Assembly: GCF_001898325.1 (NCBI RefSeq)
Contig: NZ_MKTR01000024.1
Span: 56,571-120,570, forward strand
DNA: 64,000 bases
Origin: Microbacterium sp. 67-17
Lineage (GTDB): Bacteria > Actinomycetota > Actinomycetes > Actinomycetales > Microbacteriaceae
Direction of reading: 5' to 3'
How positions within the stretch are numbered: the stretch's first letter is position 1; every line of letters begins with the position of its first letter. The notes under the pieces are model-generated. The model saw only the letters and a program-made list of their open reading frames with translations. It did not search any database and was not told the origin of the DNA. A program made the translations under genes and the position numbers. Positions 29,244 through 35,510 of this stretch are shown here, in pieces.

Positions 29244-30614
29244 ATGACATCCGAATCCCTTGCCGTGGCCATTGCTGGCGCCGGGAGCCCCGTAACTCTG
29301 ATGCGCAATCAGAACTGGCCGGCGTTCACGTTCCCGGTAGCACCCGAGTTCACGAACTGGCGTGATGAACAGCGTGCGTGGAACAGCACGGTGGCGCTCA
29401 TGGACCAGTCGCACCACATGACCCAGCTGTTCCTCGGCGGTGCTGATCTCATTCCGCTGCTCTCGAGCATCTCCCCGAACACGTTCGGCACGTTCCGTCC
29501 CGGGGTCGCGAAGCAGCTGATCTCCGTGAACAAGGACGGCTACCTCATCGGCGACGGCATCCTGTTCTACAACGAGGATGCGCCCGAGGGACTCGTGCTC
29601 ATCGGACATCACCTGCTCATCGACTGGGTTCGATTCAACGCCGAGAAGGCCCAGGCGGCCGGAAAAGACGTTCACCACCGGCTCGAGGGCAACTCGCACA
29701 TGCGTCAGGGTCCGCCGACGTTCTACCGCTACGAGCTGCAGGGGCCGAACGCGGACCTCGTCATGGAGAAGGTCTTCGGCGGACCTGCCCCCGACATCAA
29801 GTTCTTCCACATCGGGGATGTCGAGATCGCCGGGCGTCCCGTCAAGGCGCTGCGCCACGGCATGGCCGGTCAGCCCGGCTTCGAGTTCTACGGTCCCTGG
29901 GACGACAACGAGATCGTCCTGAACGCGCTCATGGAGGCAGGTGCTGAGCACGGCATCCGTCGCGTCGGTGCGAAGGCCTACTCGGCCACCCCGCTCGAAT
30001 CCGGATGGGTCCCCACGCCCTTCCCCGCCATCTTCGACGAGGACTTCGCCGAGTATCGGGAGTGGCTTCCTGCCGACCGCGCCGGCTCGATCGGCGGATC
30101 GCTCTTCAGCGAAGACATCCACGACTACTACATGACGCCCTACGACCTGGGGCTCGGTCGCTCGGTCCGGTTCGATCACGACTTCCACGGTCGCGAAGCC
30201 CTCGAGAAGCTCGCCGAGAATCCGACGCGCCGCAAGGTCACCCTGCTGTGGAATGCGAACGATGTCGCCGATGTCGTGCGCTCGCAGATGGAGCCCGGCA
30301 TCCCCGCGAAGTTCCTCGACTTCCCGAAGGCCCGCTACGGCCTCTACCAGATGGACGAGGTGCTGCTGGATGGTCGCCGCGTCGGCATTTCGACCGATGC
30401 GGGCTATATCGCTTACGACCAGCTCTACATGTCGCTCGCGACCCTGGATGTCGACATCGCCGACGGTGAGGTCGTCGAGGTCGTCTGGGGGGAAGACCCC
30501 ATCTCGCAGAAGCACAGCGTCGACGCGCAACACCGGCAGGTACGCATCCGTGCCACGGTCGCGCCGGCGCCGTACCACGAGTACGCGCGTACGGTCTATC
30601 GCGCCGACGATTGA
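29244..30614 (+). CDS. GcvT-fold, THF-dependent aromatic O-demethylase-like protein, paralogue 1
   Basis: Cytosolic protein of 456 residues, longer than glycine-cleavage GcvT (about 365), with the sequence landmarks of LigM/DesA demethylases: PEFTNWRDEQRAWNSTVALM, DQSHHMTQLF, ELQGPNADLV, ALRHGMAGQPGFEFYGP and KAYSATPLESGWVPTPFPAI. The tyrosine equivalent to LigM Tyr247 is present (Tyr246). Positions matching the substrate residues Tyr31 and Arg122 of LigM are Phe30 and His122, so the substrate probably differs from vanillate. It would move a methyl group from a methoxy compound to THF. The IclR gene follows after 40 bases, so they form a unit. No GcvH or GcvP is nearby, which argues against glycine cleavage. 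Confidence 0.75.
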   Translation: MTSESLAVAIAGAGSPVTLMRNQNWPAFTFPVAPEFTNWRDEQRAWNSTVALMDQSHHMTQLFLGGADLIPLLSSISPNTFGTFRPGVAKQLISVNKDGYLIGDGILFYNEDAPEGLVLIGHHLLIDWVRFNAEKAQAAGKDVHHRLEGNSHMRQGPPTFYRYELQGPNADLVMEKVFGGPAPDIKFFHIGDVEIAGRPVKALRHGMAGQPGFEFYGPWDDNEIVLNALMEAGAEHGIRRVGAKAYSATPLESGWVPTPFPAIFDEDFAEYREWLPADRAGSIGGSLFSEDIHDYYMTPYDLGLGRSVRFDHDFHGREALEKLAENPTRRKVTLLWNANDVADVVRSQMEPGIPAKFLDFPKARYGLYQMDEVLLDGRRVGISTDAGYIAYDQLYMSLATLDVDIADGEVVEVVWGEDPISQKHSVDAQHRQVRIRATVAPAPYHEYARTVYRADD

Positions 30615-30654
30615 GCAACGCGAGTAGCATCGTGGCGTCATCGAGGAGGATGCC

Positions 30655-31551
30655 ATGGCGCGGGGATCGGCCGGAGAGTCGGTGCTGCATAAGCACCTGA
30701 AGATCCTCGACGCCTTCGAAGCCAGGCGACCCTTCCTCACGCTCACCGAGATCGCCGACGCGGCGGGCCTGTCGGCTTCGACAGCGCACCGCCTCGTCGG
30801 CGAACTCGAGCGGGAGGGGCTGCTCGAGCGGCTCCCCGACAAGTCCTACCGTCTCGGCGTGCGCCTGTGGGAGTTCGCATCGCGCACCCCGGGAGCGATC
30901 GGGCTGCGGGAGCTGGCAAAGCCGTGGCTGGCCGCCGTTCACTCGCGGGTGCGCCAGCACACACAGCTGGGAGTGCTCGCCGGGCTCGACGTGCTGTTCG
31001 TCGAACGGATGTCGACGCGCGACGCGGTCGTGAACGCCACCCTGATCGGCGGCCGGATCCCGCTCCCCGTGAGCTCCAGCGGCCTCGTTCTGCTCGCCCA
31101 TGCCGAGCCGGGGCTTGTCGATGAGGTCGTGGCTGCCGGATGGCCGAGCTACACCGCGAGCACTCCTCGTGACGAGGCGAGTCTGCGCGACCTGCTGCGT
31201 CGCGTCCGCGGAGAGGGCTACGTGTGCGCAGAGGGGTTCATCCACGAGGAGTCCCGCGGCATCGCCGTGCCGGTCGTAGGACCTCACGGGGTGGTCTACG
31301 CGGGCTTGGGAGTCGTCGTACCCAACGACGGGGCGCCGATTCAGGGGATCGTCGAACTGCTGTCGGTTGCCGCTCGGCAGATCACCGAGGCGCTGCGGGA
31401 TGCCTATCTCCCGGACGCGGGAACCACCGGTCGCGACGAGCCGCACGGCATTCATCCGCTCGTTTCGACCTCGCTGCGCTCGCTGGCCTACCTCGAGACA
31501 CACCCCGACCCGGGGCGTCGTGCGTCATCGCCGCCGCGCGGTGTGGCTTAG
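30655..31551 (+). CDS. IclR-family transcriptional regulator
   Basis: Regulator of 298 residues. The winged helix covers about 14-72 (FLTLTEIADAAGLSASTAHR, then LVGELEREGLLERLPDKSYRLG). The GAF-like effector domain spans about 85-255 (LAGLDVLFVERMSTRDAV, GLVLLAHAEP, ESRGIAVPVVG). The C-terminal tail of about 40 residues is extra and looks unstructured. AGGAGG precedes the ATG and TAGCAT (30626-30631) is a likely -10. Its place downstream of a demethylase-like gene suggests control of that gene; IclR regulators often respond to aromatic acids such as protocatechuate. Effector unknown. Confidence 0.88.
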   Translation: MARGSAGESVLHKHLKILDAFEARRPFLTLTEIADAAGLSASTAHRLVGELEREGLLERLPDKSYRLGVRLWEFASRTPGAIGLRELAKPWLAAVHSRVRQHTQLGVLAGLDVLFVERMSTRDAVVNATLIGGRIPLPVSSSGLVLLAHAEPGLVDEVVAAGWPSYTASTPRDEASLRDLLRRVRGEGYVCAEGFIHEESRGIAVPVVGPHGVVYAGLGVVVPNDGAPIQGIVELLSVAARQITEALRDAYLPDAGTTGRDEPHGIHPLVSTSLRSLAYLETHPDPGRRASSPPRGVA

Positions 31552-31578
31552 CGCGCGGCGGCGATGACCTCCCGCAGG

Positions 31579-34024: not shown

Positions 34025-34037
34025 TGCGTCGGTTCTG

Positions 34038-34085
34038 ACACGAACGAGGGGGCGGATGCTGCAGCATCCGCCCCCTCGTTCGTGT
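34038..34085. terminator. Perfect 48-bp palindrome between convergent LysR and ligM-like genes
   Basis: Positions 34038-34085 are self-complementary at all 24 pairs with no loop (centre CTGCAG, flanks ACACGAACGAGGGGG). It starts 14 bases after the LysR stop and ends 22 bases before the stop of the convergent ligM-like gene. Function as a bidirectional terminator is the simplest reading; there is no T-tract. Its perfection is unusual. Confidence 0.7.
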
Positions 34086-34106
34086 GGTGCGCGTAGCGCG
34101 TCGGGG

Positions 34107-35510
34107 TCAGAGTGCCCCGGTGGTGCGCCACCCGCCCTGGTACTCCTGGCGTGCGGTCACCGCGTACGGCACCGGGCTCACGACGGCGCGGATCGCGATC
34201 TGCTCGTGCGGCTCGACTGTCGTCTTGCCCGACCCGCCGTTCGGCTCGCCCCAGACGACCCGGACCTCGGCGCCCACGGGCACGTCACGGTCGACCGTGG
34301 CCAGCGACAGGCCGCGCTTCTCGTTGGCGGTGACGCCGGTGAACAGCGAGAGTCCGACGGTGTTGCCGTCGGCGTCGATGACCGCGTCGTAGTTGCTCGA
34401 GCCGTAGTTTGCGTTGGGAAGGTCGAAGAACTGGTAGCCGGGGCCTTCGCGGTCGAGCACGGAGGCGAGCACCTTGGTGAGGTCCTCGTCGTTCCAGGCC
34501 AGAGTGACCTTCTTGCGCTGGGTCTCGGGGTCGATCTTCTCGAGGGCATCACGACCGATGAAGTCGTGGTCGAACTTGACGAACGACCCGTAGCCGAGCT
34601 CCCAGGGGTTCAGGTAGTAGTCCTCGATGTTGTCCGAGACGAACGATCCAGCCAGGGCGTTGATGGCCTCGTAGCTGTTCGCGGGCAGCCACTCGCGGTA
34701 GGCGCGCTCTGCCTCACTGGAGTAGATCGCCGGAAGGGGCGAGGGGATCCAGCCCGACTCCAGGGTGTTCGAGGAGTAGGCGCGGGAGCCGCAGGGCTCG
34801 ATGCCGAACTCGCGGCCGGCCTCGAGGATGGCGTCACGGATCTTGCCGTGCTGCTCGTACGGTCCCCAGATCTCCAGGCCCGGGGCGCCGGCCATACCGT
34901 GACGGAGGGTGCGCACCTTCTCGCCAGCGATCGTCATCTCTCCCATGTGGAAGAACTTGACCTGCTCGACGGGGCCGCCGGCGAGCTTCTCGATGATCGC
35001 CCAGGCGTTGGGGCCCTGAATCTGGAAGCGGTAGTAGTCGCGGTGCACGGCCTGGCCGTAGGGGCGCGAGGGGGAGCGGTCGTCGTAGCGGACCTCGACG
35101 TTGTAGCCGCCGGTCTCGGCGTGGAACTGCAGCCAGTTCGCGCCGGGAGCGCGGCCGACGTACACGTACTCGCCCTCTGCTTCGTGGAAGAGGATGCCGT
35201 CACCGATGACGCCGCCGTTGGAGGCCGTCGGGACGAACTGCTTGGCCGTGTTGACGGGGAAGTTCTTGAACCCGTTGATGCCGGTCTCGCTGAGCAGCTT
35301 CAGCGCGTCGGGTCCCTTCACGAAGAAGTTGACCATGTGGTGGCTCTGGTCGTAGAGCACGGCGGCGTTGCGCCACGCCTTCTGCTCGCGGCGCCAGTTG
35401 CTGAACTCGGCCGGGACGACCGGGTAGATGTACGTGCCGAGCTGCGAGTCCCGCAGCATCCGGACGGTATCGCCCTTCTCGTCCAGCAGCTCTTGCAGAT
35501 TCTTGGCCAT
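34107..35510 (-). CDS. ligM: Vanillate/3-O-methylgallate O-demethylase, LigM-like
   Basis: 467 residues, the length of Sphingobium LigM, and very similar along its whole course as I remember it: [89 protein letters not shown] and [20 protein letters not shown]. The residues corresponding to LigM Tyr31, Arg122 and Tyr247 are all kept (Tyr29, Arg120, Tyr245, a constant offset of two). It should transfer the methoxy methyl of vanillate or 3-O-methylgallate to THF, giving protocatechuate or gallate and 5-methyl-THF. GAGGAG lies nine bases before the ATG. It is divergent from the dioxygenase-like gene with a palindromic operator between. Confidence 0.82.

Follow-up and report, generated by a model that had tools for sequence, protein, structure and literature searches.

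The 64,000-nucleotide stretch of Microbacterium sp. 67-17 analysed here (hereafter the window; 67% G+C, on contig C24 of a 3.14 Mb genome in 35 contigs) contains three full-length open frames of 456, 456 and 467 amino acids (aa), all within positions 29244-35510, whose products we call P1, P2 and P3. Judged by profiles and phylogeny, all three are members of the LigM/DesA family of tetrahydrofolate (THF)-dependent aryl O-demethylases. Among them, P3 alone classes as LigM; P1 and P2 class as neither LigM nor DesA, by cut-off and by tree, and their sequences place them in a separate actinobacterial branch, whose substrate pocket is altered. We consider it probable that the locus is one half of a two-locus module, which would combine THF-dependent demethylation with meta-type cleavage of guaiacyl and syringyl (lignin-type) acids.

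Family membership of the three proteins

The first-pass annotation of this DNA had described three frames with the GcvT fold and the landmarks of LigM, and this description was borne out: HGMAG[QA]PG and SHHM are found in all three proteins, together with ESGW in P1 and P3 and ESAW in P2, and the Pfam family GCV_T is matched with 109 to 148 bits (cut-off 25.6). The best NCBIfam models for P1-P3 are those of DesA and LigM, far above the models of GcvT, dimethylsulfoniopropionate (DMSP) demethylase, trimethylamine N-oxide (TMAO) demethylase and sarcosine oxidase. P1 and P2 reach 31-70 bits with three GcvT models (cut-offs 236-459), 44 and 51 bits with the DMSP demethylase model (cut-off 410), 39 and 43 bits with that of TMAO demethylase (cut-off 1100), and 29 and 47 bits with that of sarcosine oxidase (cut-off 1164); P3 is likewise far under all of these cut-offs. 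Neither profiles nor phylogeny gave any sign of kinship with sarcosine/dimethylglycine or glycine-cleavage proteins, and the family assignment proposed earlier holds for all three proteins by profile and tree, and for P1 also by predicted fold. The AlphaFold model of P1 (pLDDT 88.4, pTM 0.89) has LigM structures as its best matches in the PDB, with a TM score of 0.91, as compared to about 0.6 for GcvT. Given this match to LigM crystal structures, the predicted fold of P1 is intact.

Within the family, the curated equivalog cut-offs are 580 bits for LigM (NF047885) and 800 bits for DesA (NF047633). P3 passes the former with 919 bits and stays below the latter with 632; a fourth protein of the genome, P4, also passes the LigM cut-off (873 bits). 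P1 scores 488 bits with DesA and 437 with LigM, and P2 574 and 516, so that, falling under both cut-offs, they are called by neither model. The DesA cut-off is exceeded by four plasmid proteins (854, 898, 838 and 837 bits). P1 and P2 are 60% identical, and the closest named relative of P2 among the matches listed comes from a Microbacterium metagenome-assembled genome (95% identity). The LigM/DesA-type label first attached to the three proteins can therefore be kept for the family, and refined to LigM for P3, but it does not describe P1 and P2.

A third clade with a changed pocket

Our comparison set of 151 family members drew on 80 loci from named genomes, on 11 plasmid stretches, and on the window itself together with P4. 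The 80 loci are the best 80 of at least 543 encoding stretches in public genomes, a set biased by its actinobacterial query. In a first tree (FastTree, 151 rows), long branches came together. A second one (IQ-TREE, 67 rows) omits locus L098, rows shorter than 430 aa and those with 80% or more identity to a retained row, and includes 3 of 20 extra P1 orthologues. In this second tree, 45 of the 67 rows, P1 and P2 among them, form a third clade (support 100/99), in which P1 belongs to a subclade of its own (100/100). The LigM clade (100/100) comprises LigM of Sphingobium lignivorans SYK-6, P3 and P4, and leaves P1 and P2 outside. The DesA clade (100/100) groups with LigM (96/97), apart from the third clade. 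Forcing the third clade and DesA into a single clade reduced the likelihood (p-AU 0.0145, for a group picked post hoc, with the tree already seen).

We take Tyr31, His60, Arg122 and Tyr247 of LigM to be functional residues; Tyr31 and Arg122 presumably line the aryl pocket, and Arg122 presumably binds the substrate carboxylate. At these four positions the 151 rows read Y-H-R-Y (56 rows, including P3 and P4), F-H-H-Y (64, including P1 and P2), F-H-W-Y (16) or a rare or gapped pattern (15); among the rare ones is a long row within the third clade, L084, with L-H-R-Y. The four plasmid DesA proteins over the cut-off read Y-H-R-Y, and hence retain Tyr31 and Arg122. We then compared, column by column, 83 third-clade rows outside the P1 subclade, 28 P1-type, 52 LigM-type and 4 DesA rows, with L098 dropped and L092, L096 and L097 (other patterns) set aside. 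Outside the P1 subclade, Phe31 is present in 78 of 79 ungapped third-clade rows, and residue 122 is His or Trp in 77 of 83; inside the subclade, the counts are 27 of 27 for Phe31 and 28 of 28 for His122. The P1 and P2 types are set apart from LigM and DesA by Y31F, R122H/W, R147N, R159P, Q165E and changes at 250-251, the swaps at N250 and T251 lying beside the catalytic tyrosine. H60, Y247, W256 and E215 are unchanged across the P1 and P2 types, LigM and DesA, with H60 and Y247 each conserved in no fewer than 97% of the ungapped rows.

One operator at two loci

Each of the three genes had been assigned a different control element, and this was confirmed: an IclR gene, a LysR gene and an inverted repeat (Table 1). 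The core of this last, a palindromic operator between P3 and a dioxygenase gene, has a single occurrence in the window when up to three mismatches are allowed (shuffle mean 0.11) and two sites in the whole genome when up to two are allowed, against none there for the pattern read backwards. The second site (C2:126120-126141) is immediately upstream of an operon on contig C2 in which P4 (L087:9834-11246, minus strand) stands behind genes for a methylenetetrahydrofolate reductase (MTHFR)-like protein and PurU; MarR and aldehyde dehydrogenase genes are found upstream. The triplicate set described by the first-pass annotation is thus correct for the window, and the genome as a whole has four copies. 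Near the P4 operon, a tannase-like DUF6351 frame (959 aa, 708 bits; C2, L087:6087-8966, plus strand) encodes a protein that could supply gallate esters to the pathway.

We searched 149 genomes of the genus for the same arrangement. A longer repeat, at up to three mismatches, was found in 18 of them, and its backward control in none of the 149; 17 of these 18 genomes also have the demethylase family. Of 19 operator sites in the genus, 17 precede MTHFR-PurU, the exceptions being the window site and a site in genome G075, and 14 lie 1.8-1.95 kb ahead of a demethylase match by a nearest-gene rule. The G075 match, with no MTHFR or demethylase gene adjoining, is regarded as due to chance and was kept in the counts.

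A third stretch of the genome may belong to the same metabolism. Contig C9 (14 kb) carries genes for a LysR regulator, an amidohydrolase, RraA, a second amidohydrolase, a fused LigA-LigB and a Gfo/Idh-type dehydrogenase. From this set of domains, we take the genes to be of the LigJ, LigK, LigI, LigAB and LigC types, and read them as a putative protocatechuate 4,5-cleavage pathway. The first of the two C9 amidohydrolases named is 67% identical to a gene of a Brevibacterium module.

The extradiol dioxygenase beside P3

In the type I extradiol dioxygenase encoded next to P3, H156, H218 and E270 sit in motifs common to solved extradiol enzymes and fit a metal-ligand triad, whose identity (His, His, Glu) we assume by analogy with HpaD. 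Its top-scoring model is that of catechol 2,3-dioxygenase (276 bits, below the cut-off of 320). Among the 80 loci, the family of this dioxygenase occurs in 22 and LigA/LigB in 27, and the two are never together; PrpF is found in 17 loci, of which 16 have the dioxygenase and none has LigAB. Since in relatives it replaces LigAB beside 4-oxalomesaconate genes, the dioxygenase may cleave gallate or 3-O-methylgallate. Such activities are not known from enzymes other than those of the LigB type. In the portion of the open-licence literature covered, by a search little aimed at such dioxygenases, we found no mention of LigAB being exchanged for a type I dioxygenase. A guaiacol reading drawn from the catechol label alone is weakened, as the dioxygenase accompanies PrpF, RraA, GalB or LigJ-type genes in 16 of 22 loci.

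The closest solved structure by sequence, PDB 9wgj (355 bits), is labelled a catechol 1,2-dioxygenase yet matches extradiol enzymes, and the label may be wrong. In-frame TGA codons seen inside dioxygenase homologues were, in the three cases examined, ordinary stops overrun by the alignment.

Gene linkage and distribution

All 80 loci come from Actinomycetota, with 32 from Micrococcales, 19 from Pseudonocardiales and 12 from Geodermatophilales; 18 of the stretches have fewer than 15 called genes, and several end at contig edges. Third-clade and LigM genes are found together in 45 loci and third-clade genes only in 34, leaving one (L084) with neither pattern. C1-folate genes (two MTHFR families, PurU, FolD, FchA-like) are represented at least once in 45 loci and at least twice in 40, and one of them is immediately beside a demethylase gene in 33. 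Leaving out the second MTHFR family (fam 35, of which six of six members score above the Pfam cut-off), the first count becomes 42 and the directly adjacent one 28. Other recurrent genes are those of 4-oxalomesaconate metabolism (38 loci), pabB or folP (24), the family of the window LysR (21) and the MetE-like family (13 loci, as well as 5 of the 20 genus loci described below). A fuller module is present on the Rhodococcus opacus DSM 44186 plasmid pRop44186_a (745 kb, typed mobilizable; L088, 478245-507627), where both demethylase types accompany LigAB, MTHFR, PurU, FolD, pabB, folP, fdhD and a Mur-ligase family gene.

Two side observations concern these loci. P450 and 2Fe-2S reductase families are found near third-clade genes in 8 of the 80 (L010, L018, L019, L023, L046, L047, L049, L056), so that O2-dependent and THF-dependent demethylation may coexist. 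In Amycolatopsis and Sinomonas (L029, L031, L040, L053), a block near the third-clade gene encodes a C-glycoside deglycosidase beta subunit (PF19906), a xylose-isomerase-like protein, a symporter and a ROK regulator; in these cases the methoxy-aromatic may derive from plant C-glycosides.

Within the genus, the family (a match to P1 at E 1e-60) is present in 38 of the 149 genomes, and 33 of these 38 have at least three matches, some of them fragments. P1 orthologues (at least 78% identity) occur in 27 genomes, and LigM matches (E 1e-180) in 36, with two copies in 33 of the 36. LigM and the dioxygenase (E 1e-60) are both present in 35 genomes, one is alone in 3, and neither is found in 111. Of the 27 genomes with a P1 orthologue, 26 have LigM and 27 the dioxygenase. 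The triplicate is thus a regular accessory trait, not an oddity, given how many genomes carry the family and how many of those have three matches or more. The suggestion that such a set would be unusual for Actinobacteria is not supported by these counts, nor by that of the at least 543 encoding stretches. The view of Actinobacteria as relying on Rieske and P450 demethylases also shifts, given that a quarter of the sampled genus genomes carry THF-type genes. Outside the phylum, family members are found on plasmid records of Rhizobium, Agrobacterium, Sphingobium and haloarchaea. One haloarchaeal plasmid, from Halobellus limi (NZ_CP031313.1, hit H88), has six family matches.

Besides the source genome, 26 genomes of the genus have a P1 orthologue, and in 20 of them we examined the P1 locus. 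An IclR gene follows P1 in all 20, LivG is present in all 20 (directly before P1 in 19, on the other side in L133), and the GntR/FCD regulator in 17. LigM, GalB and RraA are each found in 15 of these loci and PrpF in 14. In the window (35511-35640), as compared to the genus relatives, GalB-RraA-PrpF are absent between P3 and the dioxygenase gene, and because they are missing there the latter shares its intergenic region and operator with P3.

Proposed pathway and alternatives

Family membership, clade, conserved residues, gene linkage, co-occurrence and two operator sites are the observations from which we propose the following scheme; every substrate, the direction of flux and the pairing of regulator with operator in it are our suggestions. 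The Liv-type ABC transporter would import the aromatic. P1, P2 or both would carry out the first demethylation of the more heavily methoxylated substrates, our first guess being syringate to 3-O-methylgallate, since in relatives these genes accompany LigM as well as a lower pathway of the gallate type. P3 and P4 would then demethylate vanillate or 3-O-methylgallate. In each case the methyl group would pass to THF at the conserved Tyr247/His60 centre, and 5-methyl-THF would be oxidised to formate through MTHFR, FolD and PurU, while the MetE-like protein could divert some of the methyl to methionine. The family name of the MetE-like protein does not occur in the part of PMC7857596, on folate-independent core synthases, that was covered. 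The dioxygenase beside P3 would open gallate or 3-O-methylgallate, whereas protocatechuate would be handled by the LigAB/LigC/LigI/LigJ/RraA-type genes of contig C9, whose amidohydrolase and RraA aldolase may convert 4-oxalomesaconate into pyruvate and oxaloacetate. Through their common operator, P3-dioxygenase and MTHFR-PurU-P4 would form a single regulon, for whose regulator the product of the MarR gene beside P4 is a candidate.

Several observations weigh against this scheme. The repeat (at up to three mismatches) is missing from 21 of the 38 family carriers of the genus; 16 other carriers have a single site at the MTHFR operon and none at P3; and just 3 of the 19 operator sites have a MarR gene beside them. 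No C1-folate gene was found in 35 of the 80 stretches, a count to be read with the 18 short stretches in mind. GalB and PrpF, which the cluster typically includes in the genus, are not evident in the source genome: for PrpF no relative was found, and for GalB a weak partial match at 25% alone, both searches being made with no positive control. The co-occurrence counts ignore relatedness. Finally, a DesA-like substrate is not assured for P1 and P2, as they have lost the Tyr31 and Arg122 that DesA keeps.

This loss leads to another scenario, in which P1, P2 or both act on substrates devoid of a carboxylate (guaiacol, syringol, other methoxyphenols) or remove a para-methoxyl group. The near-uniform Phe31 and His/Trp122 of the third clade, the swaps at N250, T251, R147 and R159, the retention of Y31 and R122 in the four plasmid DesA proteins and the catechol 2,3-dioxygenase score all speak for it. 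However, the contact between Arg122 and the carboxylate is presumptive, the lower pathway linked to these genes in relatives is that of 4-oxalomesaconate, and therefore of carboxylated products, and the families scanned showed no recognisable catechol meta-pathway block. We consider this scenario unlikely. Alternatively, P1 and P2 could be spare copies that share the substrates of LigM (vanillate, 3-O-methylgallate) and differ just in regulation or affinity. The separate regulator genes would fit such redundancy, as does the documented redundancy of O-demethylases in Novosphingobium aromaticivorans (PMC8091115). Nevertheless, the retention of both types in so many Actinomycetota loci, with consistent pocket differences, and of P1 in genus genomes nearly all of which also have LigM, makes this quite unlikely. 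Finally, although the GCV_T fold is common to all, it is very improbable that P1 and P2 are other C1 transferases (glycine cleavage, dimethylglycine/sarcosine, DMSP or TMAO type), in view of their low scores with the corresponding models, of the far closer match of the P1 model to LigM than to GcvT, and of a separate GCV_T protein on contig C7 (291 bits) that is likely the true GcvT.

Beyond the two-locus module for guaiacyl and syringyl acids, a more far-reaching proposal would be that P1 and P2 form a functionally separate third subfamily, taking substrates inaccessible to LigM and DesA (methoxyphenols such as guaiacol and syringol, or para-methoxylated acids), and that the dioxygenase adjacent to P3 is a type I gallate or 3-O-methylgallate enzyme. 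Taken jointly, these two statements are speculative, and we would rather doubt that both hold. Methoxyl removal limits the use of lignin monomers, and O2-independent, single-component enzymes with an altered pocket could broaden the substrate range available for lignin conversion. The altered-pocket class spans the Actinomycetota and comes packaged with C1-folate, folate-synthesis and ring-cleavage genes.

Comparison with known systems

One close known system is LigM of SYK-6 (PDB 5TL4, 5X1I-5X1N; NF047885), within whose clade, and above whose cut-off, P3 and P4 fall. P1 and P2 have in common with it the family and the catalytic residues, and P1 the predicted fold, but they lie outside its clade and are devoid of Tyr31 and Arg122; the actinobacterial setting, moreover, has PurU and not LigH. 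With respect to the syringate O-demethylase DesA (NF047633), P1 and P2 score slightly higher than with LigM, and, as DesA works with LigM, genes of the P1 and P2 types likewise often accompany a LigM gene. DesA differs in keeping Tyr31 and Arg122 (four proteins) and in grouping with LigM.

The general idea of actinobacterial THF-dependent O-demethylases is already in print: in PMC9296663 (2022), 'DesA-like aminomethyltransferases' from thermophilic Solirubrobacterales, from Rubrobacter and from others were predicted to be such enzymes, and the one treated in that paper is 69.5% identical to DesA, with substrate-binding residues kept. Compared by description, that protein keeps the substrate-binding residues, whereas the clade of P1 and P2 is without Tyr31 and Arg122. 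This prediction is the only treatment of actinobacterial LigM/DesA that we found in the open-licence literature, as far as its accessible portions go, and in the same portions a separate clade with a changed pocket is not mentioned. The dicamba demethylases Dmt and Dmt50 are THF-dependent aryl O-demethylases that PMC9404685 lists alongside LigM and DesA.

As regards regulation, the MarR-type DesR of SYK-6 acts via inverted repeats on ligM-metF-ligH and on desB, the gene for gallate dioxygenase (PMC6888825). That regulon (ligM-metF-ligH, desB, desR) resembles the present case in that one inverted repeat serves both a LigM-MTHFR operon and the gene of a ring-cleavage dioxygenase, and in the proximity of a MarR gene; this parallel supports a gallate-type role of the window dioxygenase. 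It differs by its repeat (15 bp versus 22 bp here), by LigH in place of PurU, and by DesB in place of a type I dioxygenase. The common operator found here would define a second regulon of DesR-like architecture. As for the fate of the methyl group, the LigM-reverse MTHFR pathway of SYK-6 (PMC12585457) likewise couples demethylation to an MTHFR homologue oxidising 5-methyl-THF, and similar gene sets are stated there to occur in many other bacteria. Compared with it, PurU is added here, and relatives also have FolD, with pabB or folP nearby.

The locus and its surroundings

The features of the locus are collected in Table 1.

Table 1. Coordinates of the demethylase genes, the operator and neighbouring features in the window
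Feature	Position	Strand	Remarks
P1	29244..30614	+	THF-dependent aryl O-demethylase homologue; third (actinobacterial) clade, separate P1 subclade
IclR-type regulator	30655..31551	+	Nearest NCBIfam model PcaR/PcaU/PobR, under its cut-off; candidate regulator of P1
P2	31579..32949	-	THF-dependent aryl O-demethylase homologue, third clade
Divergent P2/LysR intergenic region	32950..33097	.	Imperfect palindrome at 32997-33034
LysR-type regulator	33098..34024	+	Divergent from P2; candidate regulator of P2
P3	34107..35510	-	LigM-type vanillate/3-O-methylgallate O-demethylase (predicted, by profile and tree)
Palindromic operator TTTACCTATG-TC-CAGAGGTAAA	35567..35588 (inverted repeat spans 35566-35589)	.	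Between P3 and the dioxygenase gene
Type I (vicinal oxygen chelate) extradiol dioxygenase	35641..36651	+	Candidate ring cleaver: gallate/3-O-methylgallate/protocatechuate; divergent from P3
Single-domain MetE-like homocysteine methyltransferase, 371 aa	36753..37868	-	NF005085, 541 bits (cut-off 313); possible methyl sink
GntR/FCD regulator, end of Liv genes	23555..24202	+	
Liv-type ABC transporter substrate-binding protein	24285..25553	-	Substrate inferred
Liv-type ABC permease, LivM-like	25550..26632	-	
Liv-type ABC permease, LivH-like	26629..27510	-	
Liv-type ABC ATPase, LivF-like	27514..28224	-	
Liv-type ABC ATPase, LivG-like	28211..28993	-	
FolD (methylene-THF dehydrogenase/cyclohydrolase)	14288..15175	+	Probably general C1 metabolism, not a cluster member

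Immediately past the MetE-like gene, at 37937-40550, the window continues with NodI/NodJ-like ABC-2 exporter genes.

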